Shown here: positions 14,846 to 21,029 of the stretch, one piece after another
Position numbering within the stretch: the stretch's first letter is position 1
Layout: every line of letters begins with the position of its first letter
Origin: Mucilaginibacter sp. L3T2-6
GTDB lineage: Bacteria; Bacteroidota; Bacteroidia; Sphingobacteriales; Sphingobacteriaceae
Direction of reading: 5' to 3'
Assembly (NCBI RefSeq): GCF_030519355.1
Contig: NZ_JAUMKC010000005.1
Location: 62,001-126,000, forward strand
Length of the DNA stretch: 64,000 nt
Notes under the pieces: generated by a model
What the model was told of the DNA's origin: nothing
Seen by the model: only the letters and a program-made list of their open reading frames with translations
Database searches by the model: none
Translations under genes and position numbers: made by a program

Positions 14846-15490
14846 ATGGAAGACGAAAGAGCGCATATTTTGCCCGAAGCTGACTCCGGGACAAGCGAGA
14901 ATTCACGCCGCAATTTCTTAAAACAGAGTACGCTTTTAACCGCCATTGCGTTAACCCCCGCAACCGCCGTTAAAGCAGCAGAGGCGCATGTGGATGAGAA
15001 AATTGCCGGGGCATTTGAAAAAATGCCCGTAAAACTGGAGGTGAATGGTATTAATCATAGCCTGTCTGTTGAGCCACGCGCTACTTTACTGGATATTTTA
15101 CGCGAGCAATTAGACCTTACCGGTACCAAAAAGGGTTGCGACCACGGCCAGTGCGGTGCATGTACTGTGCACGTGGATGGCAGGCGCGTGAACAGCTGCT
15201 TAACGCTTGGCGTAATGGTTAACGGTAAAAAGATAACCACTATTGAAGGGCTTGCCAAAGGAGATGAACTGCACCCTATGCAGGAAGCATTTATTAAACA
15301 CGATGGCTTTCAGTGCGGGTATTGCACACCGGGCCAAATCATGTCGGCAGTGGCTTGTATCCGCGAAGGGCATGCGAATTCGGAAATGGAAATTCGTGAG
15401 TATATGAGCGGAAACATCTGCCGCTGCGGAGCTTATCCGAACATTGTGAATGCTATACAGGAGGTAAAGGAAGGAGGCTTTAAGGTATGA
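14846..15490 (+). CDS. 2Fe-2S subunit of a periplasmic molybdenum hydroxylase (PaoA/YagT-like)
   Basis: Small iron-sulfur subunit of a xanthine/aldehyde oxidoreductase-type molybdoenzyme; passes electrons from the molybdenum centre to FAD. A Tat signal (SRRNFLK near residue 20, then a hydrophobic stretch ending near AVKA) sends the folded complex to the periplasm. The mature part has both [2Fe-2S] motifs: CDHGQCGACTVHVDG with a fourth Cys, and CGYCTPGQ followed by CRC. It is the first gene of the operon and overlaps the FAD-subunit gene by four bases (ATGA). The architecture matches E. coli PaoA. Confidence 0.92.
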   Translation: MEDERAHILPEADSGTSENSRRNFLKQSTLLTAIALTPATAVKAAEAHVDEKIAGAFEKMPVKLEVNGINHSLSVEPRATLLDILREQLDLTGTKKGCDHGQCGACTVHVDGRRVNSCLTLGVMVNGKKITTIEGLAKGDELHPMQEAFIKHDGFQCGYCTPGQIMSAVACIREGHANSEMEIREYMSGNICRCGAYPNIVNAIQEVKEGGFKV

Positions 15491-16470
15491 AGCCATTTCA
15501 ATATACAAAAGCTGTAACCCAGCAAAGCGCTATAGAGGCCATTGCCAAACCGGGAGTAAAGATTATTGCGGGCGGCACCAATCTTGTCGACCTAATGAAA
15601 CGGGGAGTGACTGCGCCCGATAAACTGGTGGATATTAATAATCTGCCCCTAAAAAGTATCAGCCTTGATAAGGCGGGCCAGCTGCATATTGGGGCATTGG
15701 CCTTAAACAGCACGGTATCCGAAAGTCCGTTAGTGCTTGAACAGCAACCTTTACTGGCCATGGCGCTCAAAGCAGGGGCATCGCCGCAACTGCGCAATAT
15801 GGCTACCGTTGGTGGTAATATGATGCAGCGCACACGTTGCGCTTACTTTTACGACACCACGATGCCCTGCAATAAACGCCAGCCCGGAAGCGGGTGCGGT
15901 GCATTAGAAGGATATAACCGGATGCATGCCATTTTTGGCACAAGCAACAAATGCATTGCCGTTCATCCGAGCGATATGTGTGTGGCGTTGGCAGCGCTCG
16001 GGGCCGAGGTAACCGTCAGCAGCCGCAAAGGCTCACGGGTAATTCCTTTTACGGACTTCCATCGCTTGCCGGGTGATCACCCTGAAAAAGACAACACGCT
16101 GGCCGATGGCGAGCTGATAACCGGTGTTGTCATCAGCAATAACAAATTCGCCAAAAACAGCTATTATTTGAAGATACGCGACAGGCAATCGTATGCCTTT
16201 GCGCTGGTATCTGTAGCTGCCGCCCTGGAAATAAATAACGGAACAATTAAAGAGGCGCGTTTAGCTATGGGTGGCGTGGCGCATAAACCATGGCGTTTAT
16301 ATGATGCCGAGAAGGCCTTAGCAGGCAAACCTGCAAACGAAGAAAGCTTTAACCAGGCCGCTCAAATTGCGATGCAGGGCGCAAAGGGGTACCAATTTAA
16401 TTCGTTTAAGCTGAAGCTCGCGCCGGCAGCTATTACTGAGGCGTTGAAGCATGCGGCCGGTATAGCGTAA
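15487..16470 (+). CDS. FAD-binding subunit of the molybdenum hydroxylase (PaoB/YagS-like)
   Basis: 327-aa FAD subunit. FAD-binding motifs IAGGTNLVDLMKRGV (about residue 27) and ATVGGNMMQR (about 110) are intact. Between them and the next conserved block is a cysteine-containing insert (RCAYFY, PCNKRQPGSGCG, NKCIAVHPSD), which in PaoB-type subunits binds an extra [4Fe-4S] cluster. A C-terminal CODH flavoprotein domain follows. It has no signal peptide of its own, consistent with export in complex with the Tat-bearing small subunit. Translationally coupled to that subunit. Confidence 0.9.
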   Translation: MKPFQYTKAVTQQSAIEAIAKPGVKIIAGGTNLVDLMKRGVTAPDKLVDINNLPLKSISLDKAGQLHIGALALNSTVSESPLVLEQQPLLAMALKAGASPQLRNMATVGGNMMQRTRCAYFYDTTMPCNKRQPGSGCGALEGYNRMHAIFGTSNKCIAVHPSDMCVALAALGAEVTVSSRKGSRVIPFTDFHRLPGDHPEKDNTLADGELITGVVISNNKFAKNSYYLKIRDRQSYAFALVSVAAALEINNGTIKEARLAMGGVAHKPWRLYDAEKALAGKPANEESFNQAAQIAMQGAKGYQFNSFKLKLAPAAITEALKHAAGIA

Positions 16471-16507
16471 ATGATGCATGGCCCCAATTGATATAATGGA
16501 AGCAACC

Positions 16508-16660
16508 GGCCCTAGGGGCCAAATATTGGCAGAATAGAACAACGAAGCACTCACCGCCCGATAGATGCGGCGTTCATGCATAATATCATGTTGCGCACCG
16601 GCGCCCGGATATCGTTAATTGCGTTTTGCTAATACCAATATTGAGGCTCCTAACGGAGCC
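16508..16660. repeat. solo palindromic intergenic element (REP/MITE-like)
   Basis: Begins with hairpin GGCCC-TAG-GGGCC (16508-16520) followed by AAATATTGGCAGA, and ends with TACCAATATT followed by hairpin GGCTCC-TAAC-GGAGCC (16645-16660). The inner ends AATATTGG / CCAATATT are inverted. The same plan (hairpin, ATATTGG, body, CCAATAT, hairpin) is seen in the three copies at 41.8-42.6 kb. It sits between the FAD and first catalytic subunit genes. No ORF inside. Confidence 0.7.
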
Positions 16661-16690
16661 AAAAATGTACACTTAACGGAATGACATCAA

Positions 16691-18844
16691 ATGACAAATA
16701 ACCAATCAACCAAAGGCTTAAGCCGCATCGATGGCCGCCTGAAAGTTACCGGCGCTGCACGTTATTCCGCGGAATTTGCGCCAGCCGGGATGGTTTATGG
16801 CGTATTGGTGGGCAGCACCATTACTAAAGGGACAATCAAGTCGATCGACAGCAAGGCGGCTGAAAGGGCGCCGGGAGTTTTATCAGTGATTACTCATCAA
16901 AACTGCCCGAGAATCGCAGGATACCAGGTTGAGCCCGGAAAAAAAGAACCGGAAAAGGGCACTTACAAGCTTTTTTATAACAATAAGATTTTATTTAACG
17001 GGCAGCCTATCGCTATTGTAATTGCTGATACGTTCGAGCGGGCGCTGTATGCGGCATCATTGGTAAAGGCGCAATATAACGCAGCGGAACATAACACCCG
17101 TTTAATTGACCAGAAGCACGAGGCTTTTGCACCGGAAGGCGATGGTACCAGTAAGCGCGGGGAAGCCGACGCCTGGAAGACGGCGCCATTTAAACTGGAG
17201 CAGGAATACATTATTCCATCAGAAGTCCACAGCCCGATGGAACTGCATGCCATAATAGCCAAGTGGGATGCCGCGGACAGGCTGACGGTATGGACGAAAA
17301 CACAGGGCGTGCAGGACACCCGCGACGGCATTGCCAGTATATTTAAGCTGCCCAGGGAAAACATACAGGTGAACTCCAAATTTGTGGGTGGCGCTTTCGG
17401 CAGCGCATTACAGGTATGGCCCCATGAAGTGGCAGCGATCGTTGCAGCAAAATTGGTTAAGCGACCGGTAAAATTAGTGCTTGGCAGGGCCGACATGTTT
17501 ACATCGGTTGGCTATCGTCCGCATACCTGGCAAAAAATAGGTATTGGCGCTACAGCTGATGGTAAACTGGTTGGAATAACCCATGAAGCCATTGGACAAA
17601 CCTCTGCTTACGAAGATTTTAATGAAGGGCCGATTGGTGTTAGCCGCGCAACCTACGCGTGTGCAAACGTAAATACCCTTTATAAATTAAGCGCACTGGA
17701 TATTGGCTCGCCCACCTGGATGCGCGGTCCGGGCGAAGCAACGGGCGCATTTGCCCTGGAGTCGGCCCTGGATGAATTGTCTTACCAATTAAATATTGAT
17801 CCGGTTGAATTGCGTATCATCAACCATGCGGATACCGACCCGGAAAGCGGGAAGCCATTTTCGAGCAAATATTTAAAGGAGGCTTATAAATTAGGAGCAG
17901 ACGCTATCGGGTGGAGCGACCGGAAAACTAAACCGGGCGCGACCGCCCAGAACGGCTGGCTGGTTGGTTATGGCATGGGAGGCGGCATGTTCGGCGCTTA
18001 CCGCGATAAGGCGGCAGCCCGGGTGGTGATGAAGGACGACGGCACTTTGCTGATACAAACGGCGGTAAGCGATATAGGCCCGGGAACAGGTACGATGATT
18101 GTGACAATAGCATCAGAGGAGATGGGCCTGCCGGCGGAAAAGATTAAGTTTGACCTGGGCGATTCATCGCTTCCGCTGGCGCCAAGCCAGGGCGGCTCGG
18201 GCACCACGGCAACAGTAGGATCTGCAGTTTACCAGGCTTGTACCGACCTGAAGGAAAATTTTCAAAAACTGGCAGGTAATGGCGGCACCGACAAGCCTGA
18301 CTATGCTGCCATATTGAAACGCAATAACCTGCAAAAGCTGGAAGTTACCAGCACCACGAACGGTGGACCGGAACGCGATAAGTACGCCATGTACGCGTGG
18401 TCGGTCCATTTTGTGAAGGTTTTGGTACACCCGGCAACCGGTGTGGTTAAAATAGATAAAGCCGTATGCGTGGCGGATTGCGGCCATGTAGTTAGCCCTA
18501 AGACTGCGCGAAGCCAGCTAATAGGAGGCGCCATCGGCGGCATAGGCATGGCGTTGATGGAGGAAGTGGTAATAGACCACCGTTATGGCAGGCTGGTTAA
18601 CAATAACTTTGCTGACTACCATGTGCCGGTTAATGCGGACATCCCGCAAATAGAGGCCATTTTTGTGAACAAACCGGACCCTTATATCAACCCAATGGGT
18701 GCTAAAGGCATGGCCGAAATAGCCTTAATTGGTATGGCGCCGGCTGTTGCTAATGCTGTGTATAACGCTACAGGCAAGAGGGTTAGGGAATTACCGATTA
18801 CACCTGATAAGTTGTTAGGCAAAGATGGTGCGATGGAAAGTTGA
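16691..18844 (+). CDS. molybdopterin-binding catalytic subunit, copy 1 (PaoC/YagR-like)
   Basis: 717-aa catalytic subunit of the molybdenum hydroxylase family, expected to oxidise aldehydes or N-heterocycles. Family landmarks: SRIDGRLKVTGAARYSAEF at the N-terminus, GGAFGSALQVWPHE near residue 235, RGPGEATGAFALESALDEL near 345, and the C-terminal GAKGMAE with the catalytic glutamate. The residue just before that Glu is Ala where copy 2 has Gly (GAKGMGE, the commoner form). No signal peptide. The gene is 220 bases after the FAD subunit, separated by a palindromic repeat, and a close paralogue follows 22 bases after its stop. Confidence 0.9.
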   Translation: MTNNQSTKGLSRIDGRLKVTGAARYSAEFAPAGMVYGVLVGSTITKGTIKSIDSKAAERAPGVLSVITHQNCPRIAGYQVEPGKKEPEKGTYKLFYNNKILFNGQPIAIVIADTFERALYAASLVKAQYNAAEHNTRLIDQKHEAFAPEGDGTSKRGEADAWKTAPFKLEQEYIIPSEVHSPMELHAIIAKWDAADRLTVWTKTQGVQDTRDGIASIFKLPRENIQVNSKFVGGAFGSALQVWPHEVAAIVAAKLVKRPVKLVLGRADMFTSVGYRPHTWQKIGIGATADGKLVGITHEAIGQTSAYEDFNEGPIGVSRATYACANVNTLYKLSALDIGSPTWMRGPGEATGAFALESALDELSYQLNIDPVELRIINHADTDPESGKPFSSKYLKEAYKLGADAIGWSDRKTKPGATAQNGWLVGYGMGGGMFGAYRDKAAARVVMKDDGTLLIQTAVSDIGPGTGTMIVTIASEEMGLPAEKIKFDLGDSSLPLAPSQGGSGTTATVGSAVYQACTDLKENFQKLAGNGGTDKPDYAAILKRNNLQKLEVTSTTNGGPERDKYAMYAWSVHFVKVLVHPATGVVKIDKAVCVADCGHVVSPKTARSQLIGGAIGGIGMALMEEVVIDHRYGRLVNNNFADYHVPVNADIPQIEAIFVNKPDPYINPMGAKGMAEIALIGMAPAVANAVYNATGKRVRELPITPDKLLGKDGAMES

Positions 18845-18866
18845 ACTGTTGTAATGTTAGAATGTT

Positions 18867-21029
18867 ATGAAAGTTAAAGAGACGGCAATACCTGGAAACC
18901 ATAACTTAATGCCCGATGACAGGACAGGGAAGTCTGCCCTAAGCCGTGTTGACGGCAGACTAAAAGTTACCGGCAAAGCCAAATATTCTGCAGAATACAA
19001 TGTTAAAGATTTGGTATATGGAGTGATGGTTGGCAGTTCTGTCACCAAAGGAACCATTAAATCCATCGACACAAAAAAAGCAGAAAATGCGCCGGGTGTG
19101 CTTTCTGTGCTTACTTACCTTAACGCGCCTAAAATTCCGGGGTACCAGGCGGATAACCCTTCGCCAAAAGGCCCGCTCAAGATATTTTACAATAACCAGG
19201 TTTATTTTAATGGCCAGCCCATTGCGCTGGTAGTAGCCGATACGTTTGAGCGGGCGCTCTTTGCATCGACCCTGGTCACCGCGACTTACGATACCGAGGC
19301 CCACCAAACTAACCTGCTCACCAATCTCGACAAAGGGGTTTCTACCCGCCGGGAAGATAAAGACTTTGTTAAGGGGCAGGCAAACGCGTGGCAGTCGGCG
19401 CCGGTGAAGGTGGATGCAGAGTATATCATCCCGACAGAGGTGCACAACCCCATGGAGCTGCATGCTATAATTGCCCGGTGGGATGCGGGTGATAAGGTGA
19501 GCGTTTATACTAAAACCCAGGGCGTTAAATCTTCGCAAAGAAGCATTGCGCAGGCATTTAAGCTGCCACCAGATAACGTACAGGTTACCGCGCCATTTGT
19601 CGGCGGAGCATTTGGTTCGGCCTTACGGACCTGGCCTCATGAGATAGCTGCTGTACTGGCATCAAAGGTAGTGGGTAAACCTGTTAAGCTGGTGCTGAGC
19701 CGCGCTGATATGTTTACGTCAGTAGGCTATCGCCCGTTTACCTGGCAAAAGGTTAGTTTAGGTGCGGGCGCGGATGGTAAACTTACCGGCATTACGCATG
19801 AGGCTACCGGGCAATCATCCGTTTATGAAGATTTTACGGAAGGAGTGGTGAATATCAGTCAGCTGATGTATGCCTGTCCGAATATCAATACCCGGTACAG
19901 GCTCGTATCGCTCAATGTAAATACTCCGACGCCGATGCGCGGGCCGGGCGAGGCCACGGGCGCCTTTGCGCTGGAATCGGCGATGGATGAATTATCGTAT
20001 GCCTTAAACATCGACCCCATTGAGCTGCGCATGCGCAATTACGCCGAAACCGACCCATCAAACAACAAGCCTTATTCGAGCAAATTCCTGGCAGAGGCCT
20101 ACAAAATAGGGGCAGAGAAAATTGGCTGGACCGAACGCAGCCAAAAGCCGGGTACAATATTGCAAAATGGCTGGCACATAGGCTATGGAATGGCGGCAGG
20201 CATGTTTGGTGCACATCGCAGCTCATCAACCGTTACTGCAAAAATGCAGGCCGACGGAACGCTGGTTTTACAAACAGCAGTTACAGATATCGGGCCTGGT
20301 ACGGGAACTGCAATGGCCTCGGTAGCAACCGGGGTAATGGATATTCCCGCTGACAAAATTAAGATCGTGCTGGGCGACTCGTCACTGCCTCCTTCGCCTA
20401 CGCAGGGCGGCTCGCAGATTGCTGCCACAGTGGGTTCGGCCGTGCACGATGCCTGCACTGAACTTAAAGAGAAATTTAAATCGATGGCCGGTAATACCGA
20501 CCCGGCTGACTATATAAAGATACTAAAGCAGCAGGGGCTGGACCACCTGGAAGTTACCACCACTTCGAAAAGCGGACCGGAGCAGGGGAAATATTCCATG
20601 TATTCCTGGTCGGTTCATTTTATGCGTGTTTTGGTGCACCCGGCTACCGGGGTCGTTAAAATCGATAAGGCGATTTCTGTAGCTGATGCCGGACAAATAT
20701 TAAGCCCTAAAACCGCCCGCAGCCAGATGATCGGCGGTACTATTATGGGTATAGGCATGGCGCTGATGGAAGAAGCTGTTATAGACCACCGCTACGGCCG
20801 CCTGGTAAACAACAACTTTGCCGATTACCATGTGCCTGTACAAGCTGATATTCCCCAGGTGGAAGCCTACTTCGTTAATAAGGCCGATAATATACTAAAC
20901 CCCATCGGGGCCAAAGGCATGGGCGAGATTGCGACCATCGGCGTTGCGGCAGCTGTGGCTAATGCCGTTTATAATGCTACCGGAAAACGGGTGCGGGAAC
21001 TGCCAATTACGCCGGATAAGCTGTTGTGA
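18867..21029 (+). CDS. molybdopterin-binding catalytic subunit, copy 2 (PaoC/YagR-like)
   Basis: 720-aa tandem paralogue of the preceding gene. The same landmarks are present: SRVDGRLKVTGKAKYSAEY near residue 27, GGAFGSALRTWPHE, RGPGEATGAFALESAMDEL and GAKGMGE with the catalytic glutamate. The two proteins share long identical runs near the C-terminus (IDHRYGRLVNNNFADYHVPV is one), so they arose by duplication, but substrate-pocket segments differ (for example DIGSPTWMRGPG against NVNTPTPMRGPG). Only one small subunit and one FAD subunit are present, so the two copies probably compete for the same partners. No XdhC/PaoD-type maturation gene is seen nearby. Confidence 0.9.
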   Translation: MKVKETAIPGNHNLMPDDRTGKSALSRVDGRLKVTGKAKYSAEYNVKDLVYGVMVGSSVTKGTIKSIDTKKAENAPGVLSVLTYLNAPKIPGYQADNPSPKGPLKIFYNNQVYFNGQPIALVVADTFERALFASTLVTATYDTEAHQTNLLTNLDKGVSTRREDKDFVKGQANAWQSAPVKVDAEYIIPTEVHNPMELHAIIARWDAGDKVSVYTKTQGVKSSQRSIAQAFKLPPDNVQVTAPFVGGAFGSALRTWPHEIAAVLASKVVGKPVKLVLSRADMFTSVGYRPFTWQKVSLGAGADGKLTGITHEATGQSSVYEDFTEGVVNISQLMYACPNINTRYRLVSLNVNTPTPMRGPGEATGAFALESAMDELSYALNIDPIELRMRNYAETDPSNNKPYSSKFLAEAYKIGAEKIGWTERSQKPGTILQNGWHIGYGMAAGMFGAHRSSSTVTAKMQADGTLVLQTAVTDIGPGTGTAMASVATGVMDIPADKIKIVLGDSSLPPSPTQGGSQIAATVGSAVHDACTELKEKFKSMAGNTDPADYIKILKQQGLDHLEVTTTSKSGPEQGKYSMYSWSVHFMRVLVHPATGVVKIDKAISVADAGQILSPKTARSQMIGGTIMGIGMALMEEAVIDHRYGRLVNNNFADYHVPVQADIPQVEAYFVNKADNILNPIGAKGMGEIATIGVAAAVANAVYNATGKRVRELPITPDKLL

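Follow-up and report, generated by a model that had tools for sequence, protein, structure and literature searches.

A Mucilaginibacter pao-like operon with two catalytic subunit genes and a single set of Fe-S and FAD partner genes

The window analysed here is a 64,000 nt stretch of the genome of Mucilaginibacter sp. L3T2-6 (contig NZ_JAUMKC010000005.1, positions 62,001 to 126,000, forward strand). It carries a + strand operon related to paoABC of E. coli, in which one gene for an iron-sulfur (Fe-S) subunit and one for a flavin adenine dinucleotide (FAD) subunit are followed by two genes for molybdenum (Mo) cofactor-binding catalytic subunits, termed Mo1 and Mo2. The parts of the operon, in window coordinates, are as follows:

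14846–15490, + strand: Fe-S subunit, PaoA-like, 214 amino acids (aa), two [2Fe-2S] domains; the sole Fer2_2 place in the genome
14903–14923, + strand: twin-arginine (Tat) motif in the Fe-S subunit, SRRNFLK, read from the sequence
15487–16470, + strand: FAD subunit, PaoB-like, 327 aa; the sole FAD_binding_5 place in the genome
15838–15954, + strand: cysteine pattern of the FAD subunit
16691–18844, + strand: Mo1 catalytic subunit, PaoC-like, 717 aa, intact; falls in the Mo1 clade
17717–17719, + strand: Trp343 of Mo1, preceding MRGPGEATG
18716–18718, + strand: Glu676 of Mo1, aligned with PaoC E692
18867–21029, + strand: Mo2 catalytic subunit, PaoC-like, 720 aa, intact; falls in the Mo2 clade
19932–19934, + strand: Pro356 of Mo2, preceding MRGPGEATG
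20925–20927, + strand: Glu687 of Mo2, aligned with PaoC E692

The Fe-S and FAD genes overlap by 4 bp, and Mo1 and Mo2 are separated by 22 bp. An earlier note on this DNA had described a single PaoA-like and a single PaoB-like gene followed by two full-length PaoC-like genes with their catalytic landmarks, and both the open reading frames (ORFs) and genome-wide searches bear this out. In Mo1 and Mo2 alike, the hammerhead domain and the two Mo cofactor-binding domains (PF01315, PF02738 and PF20256) score above cut-off, and the cofactor-loop glycines and the catalytic Glu are retained. Of 106 aligned rows, 104 have Glu in the column of PaoC E692 and the other two have a gap. The top NCBIfam model for both catalytic proteins is PaoC (613.6 and 604.7 bits, under the 1180-bit equivalog cut-off), and for the Fe-S protein it is PaoA (255.7 bits, under the cut-off of 322). 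The pattern [ST]RRx[FLIV][LIVMFA] is found in 55 of 70 Fe-S homologues, and the remaining 15 have RRxFLK after a different residue. A motif search and a reading of the starts of Mo1 and Mo2, made without a signal-peptide predictor, revealed no RR motif or signal peptide in either. The cysteine pattern of the FAD subunit is present in 71 of 72 FAD ORFs, the exception being a fragment of 195 aa that lies where a contig ends; we take the pattern to be an additional [4Fe-4S] site of the kind in PaoB and 4-hydroxybenzoyl-CoA reductase.

The window genome (5.7 Mb in 42 contigs, listed as 99.99% complete) offers these catalytic subunits a single set of partners. A genome-wide domain search placed Fer2_2 at one position, FAD_binding_5 at one and MoCoBD_1 at two, all within the operon, and whole-genome searches turned up no further member of this family, whether Fe-S, FAD or catalytic, and hence no second core. 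XdhC_C also occurs at a single place, on a different contig from the operon, where the XdhC-type gene adjoins a MocA-like gene (182.4 vs 350 and 139 vs 186.45 bits, both under the cut-offs) and is surrounded by moaA, moeA-like, moaC, mobA-like, moeB-like and FdhD-family genes. As the genome has one Fe-S, one FAD and one XdhC-type gene, Mo1 and Mo2 have one conventional partner set available. The gene content strongly implies that one core is shared by both catalytic subunits.

The distribution of the pair was examined in 149 genomes of the genus, of which 73 match Mo1 at E <= 1e-200; regions were read from all 73 and paralogues were assigned by tree. Mo1 and Mo2 occur together in 22 genomes, 15 of which have a listed completeness of 90% or more and contamination of 5% or less. 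The two genes are adjacent on one contig in 21, and in G180 they are split across two contig ends. An assembly artefact was rejected on the basis of this adjacency, which includes the single-contig genomes G117 and G187. Six of the 22 (G015, G059, G152, G162, G172 and G179; loci L073, L074, L075, L079, L080 and L087) carry a third PaoC-like paralogue, 51–54% identical to the window copies, which follows the FAD gene and precedes Mo1. Wherever the contig extends far enough to include the upstream part of a multi-copy operon, one Fe-S gene and one FAD gene are present. As a shared-core operon the locus is well supported, and it is conserved. Among the other matching genomes, 20 have a Mo1-type gene without Mo2, two (G014, G160) have Mo2 without Mo1, and 29 have neither: 28 carry different single-copy relatives and G157 has only an orphan, a PaoC-like gene with no Fe-S or FAD gene beside it.

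Domain counts agree with this picture. In 21 of the 22 tandem genomes, the surplus of MoCoBD_1 over Fer2_2 matches the number of additional catalytic genes; it is +2 in all six triples and in G164 (tandem plus orphan). A surplus does not by itself indicate the tandem, since 14 of the 127 other genomes have one too. Its traced sources there are orphans (G002, G122, G157, G160) and pairs of distantly related catalytic genes that we take to be IorAB-like (G008, G057, G171); G003, G011 and G113 showed one IorB-like gene within the stretch read, and the remaining four genomes are G051, G132, G148 and G154. Orphan PaoC-like genes, accompanied by neither an Fe-S nor a FAD gene within the stretches read, are found at L137–L141, in five congeners, and likewise at L123 and L224. 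In G002, G122, G160 and G164 the orphan is accompanied by a full operon elsewhere in the genome, and orphan subunits may borrow a core encoded elsewhere in the same genome. G048 carries, besides its ordinary operon, a distant second Fe-S, FAD, Mo operon (L142:4209-8167) whose Mo protein is 42% identical to Mo2.

Mo1 and Mo2 are identical at 456 of 701 aligned columns (65%; 81% similar). Long identical blocks had been taken in the earlier note as a sign of duplication. They are conserved protein motifs and do not mark a recent event: synonymous sites are saturated (proportion of synonymous differences, pS, 0.79), and a comparison in 60-column windows showed none that looks recently converted. 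Synonymous differences are high in every such window, and both a recent duplication and a gene conversion were rejected on this ground. Among 425 well-conserved columns, only four set tandem-lineage Mo1 together with Mo2 apart from single-copy Mo1, and none of the four is invariant across the rows, which speaks against these readings as well. Nonsynonymous to synonymous rate ratios (dN/dS, from pairs with dS <1) are 0.04–0.08 in six Mo1 pairs and 0.02–0.10 in seven Mo2 pairs. Both copies are under purifying selection, and the split between them is old and maintained.

In a quick tree (107 rows), the Mo1 clade (42 rows), Mo2 (24), the third copy (6) and the orphans (5) have support of 97, 99, 99 and 100 by the Shimodaira–Hasegawa-like approximate likelihood ratio test (SH-aLRT). 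A careful tree (64 rows, rooted on E. coli PaoC) puts each of these groups on one side of a branch, with support of 92/82, 100/99, 100/100 and 100/100, respectively. Mo2 lies outside all Mo1-clade rows in both trees. The approximately unbiased test does not reject a topology that groups tandem-lineage Mo1 with Mo2 (p-AU 0.162), and a tree of the Fe-S and FAD proteins places the tandem species in two groups inside a partly open fork, requiring two changes. The tandem may have arisen once, with later losses, or have been acquired twice.

At 85% within-clade conservation, seven columns divide the Mo1 clade from the Mo2 clade. One of these is the Trp343/Pro356 position, two residues ahead of the Arg in MRGPGEATG, with Trp in 42 of 42 Mo1-clade rows and Pro in 24 of 24 Mo2-clade rows; the difference beside this loop, pointed out from the window alone, is thus clade-wide. 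Leu679/Thr690 and Met682/Val693, three and six residues past the catalytic Glu, are also among the seven. A second proposed mark, Ala against Gly directly before the catalytic Glu, did not hold as a paralogue-specific determinant, as the column varies inside the Mo1 clade: tandem-lineage Mo1 (23 rows) has Gly in 20, Ala in two and one gap, single-copy Mo1 orthologues (19 rows) have Ala in 13 and Gly in six, and Mo2 (24 rows) has Gly in 23 and one gap. Of the two residue differences put forward in the earlier note, the loop Trp/Pro is fixed between the paralogues and Ala/Gly is not. At the Glu of RGPGE (Mo1 residue 349, window 17735–17737), 11 of the 23 tandem-lineage Mo1 rows, all six triple genomes among them, carry Pro, Tyr or Asp, and a replacement is seen in only one of 83 rows of other groups; Mo1 of the window retains the Glu. 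The predicted structure of Mo1 has a mean predicted local distance difference test score (pLDDT) of 88.3.

Promoter and terminator scans gave sites no more numerous than in shuffles. The 220-bp gap before Mo1 (16471–16690) contains a hairpin segment with copies elsewhere in the genome, some of them near contig ends. Gaps in the tandem operons L066, L068 and L080 are long (292, 401 and 256 nt) and fold strongly, with raw folding energies of -126.7, -156.1 and -114.7 kcal/mol.

Outside the genus, the comparison covers 55 loci (L221–L276 minus L274, which is from M. arboris), a non-random set drawn from the best 78 loci of one scan. All 55 have one catalytic gene, and so differ from the window. 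The order Fe-S, FAD, Mo is the same in 54 of these single-copy pao-like operons (Pedobacter, Chitinophagaceae and others), the exception being L224, with neither an Fe-S nor a FAD gene nearby. A phylum search gave one locus with two PaoC-like genes close together as in the window, in G777, a genome of the same class and another family (L295:4563-12335). There, each catalytic gene has its own Fe-S and FAD gene, giving two complete sets in a row, and the locus is a useful contrast because the whole Fe-S/FAD/Mo set is doubled. G213 and G229, of the same family and another genus, have two matches each, on different contigs. The scans that gave these two genomes and G777 scored the two best candidates per genome, so that their counts stop at two copies. 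Within the data examined, doubled catalytic genes with a shared core are confined to this genus.

The top solved relatives of Mo1 and Mo2 are E. coli PaoC and the aldehyde oxidase of Methylobacillus sp. KY4400. The E. coli enzyme PaoABC (YagTSR; PDB 5g5g, 5g5h) resembles the window operon in its gene order (Fe-S, FAD, Mo), in having a Tat motif on the Fe-S subunit only, in its catalytic Glu and in fold, the Mo1 model reaching a template modelling (TM) score of 0.91 to 5g5g_C. It differs in having one catalytic gene per core, where the window has two, and in carrying paoD next door. PaoC R440 is Phe in both Mo1 and Mo2, which score about half the PaoC equivalog cut-off. The Methylobacillus enzyme (PDB 5y6q; TM 0.89) is the best or second distinct solved relative, and is listed as having one large subunit, unlike the window. 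The IorAB-like loci, which are distantly related, give the genus another instance of more catalytic genes than Fe-S genes: two catalytic genes lie around one Fe-S gene, the same numbers as in the window. Pairs were seen in three of six loci examined (L277:4703-10138, L278:6069-12262 and L281:6923-12358). These loci have another domain order, and no FAD domain was seen among the scanned neighbours; both catalytic proteins of L277 bear an RR motif and are 43% identical to each other. To our knowledge, the characterised enzymes of the family have one catalytic subunit per core, and the titles and abstracts searched, a partial coverage with few subscription journals, described none with several.

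According to one study of E. coli, PaoB and PaoC lack signals of their own and are exported by the Tat-bearing PaoA, whose own export fails if PaoB or PaoC is missing (PMC4273604). PaoABC is described in another as a heterotrimer that does not dimerise via its Mo domain, carries the molybdopterin cytosine dinucleotide form of the cofactor and prefers aromatic aldehydes (PMC3958847). Because of the homology to PaoABC, Mo1 and Mo2 would each depend on the sole Fe-S/FAD pair both to be exported and to pass on electrons. The operon probably encodes alternative PaoABC-type periplasmic heterotrimers that share one exported core and exchange their catalytic subunits. The Fe-S subunit, with its Tat signal, and the FAD subunit would form the electron-transfer and export core. 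One XdhC/MocA maturation system would load Mo1 or Mo2 with Mo cofactor, and whichever copy was loaded would assemble with the core in the cytoplasm and be co-transported through Tat. Two kinds of heterotrimer would result, whose pockets for aldehydes or N-heterocycles differ somewhat, and Mo1 and Mo2 may act on different substrates. Assembly of both copies with one core, the carried export and the form of the cofactor are what we infer from this comparison. The gene content (two catalytic genes with a single Fe-S, FAD and XdhC-type gene, and the pair in 22 of 149 genomes) is best read as the earlier note proposed, with one core and alternative catalytic subunits.

Several observations weigh against this explanation. 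The clade-separating columns number only seven, and the loop Trp/Pro need not set substrate choice, because single-copy relatives vary there too (14 Trp, 15 Pro). Among species Mo2 is dispensable, since of the 73 matching genomes 20 have a Mo1-type gene without Mo2 and two the reverse, and the tandem genome G161 shows no catalytic surplus (two places each of MoCoBD_1 and Fer2_2). The few fixed differences, the 65% identity and the common catalytic landmarks would also suit a pair of redundant isozymes, using the same core on the same substrates and retained for dosage or for different conditions; the 22-bp gap, which suggests co-transcription, fits such a pair as well. Long separate maintenance with saturated synonymous sites, the Trp/Pro, Leu/Thr and Met/Val positions that are fixed close to the active site, and the change of the RGPGE Glu in Mo1 alone in part of the tandem lineage (11/23 vs 1/83 rows) speak against redundancy, which we regard as rather unlikely.

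It is improbable that Mo1 and Mo2 sit together with the core in one larger complex, one of them perhaps mainly structural. Their genes are adjacent in 21 genomes and, according to PMC3958847, most family members of known structure dimerise via the Mo subunit, but PaoABC, the closest solved enzyme, is given there as a non-dimerising heterotrimer. The catalytic Glu and the cofactor-loop glycines are also intact in both copies, and either copy is found without the other. Use of the core by one copy only, the other being core-independent or in the course of loss, appears very improbable. Use without an adjacent core is conceivable because orphan PaoC-like genes exist, those of L137–L141 lacking neighbouring Fe-S and FAD genes. 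Against this, the operon of the window holds both copies intact, purifying selection acts on each, and the motif search saw no export motif of its own in either.

Alternative heterotrimers around one shared core thus remain the preferred explanation. A broader version of it, to which we give slightly less than an even chance, is a hub-and-spoke arrangement: one Tat-exported core would serve as many as three catalytic subunits from the operon, joined in some species by orphans encoded elsewhere, and these would compete for it and set the periplasmic oxidation repertoire by exchange. A conserved natural system in which one core serves several catalytic subunits would make the interface residues that permit exchange testable, and likewise whether Tat quality control selects among competing partners and how molybdenum hydroxylases acquire substrates while keeping a single electron chain. 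Such a system is also a possible scaffold for engineered aldehyde oxidases.

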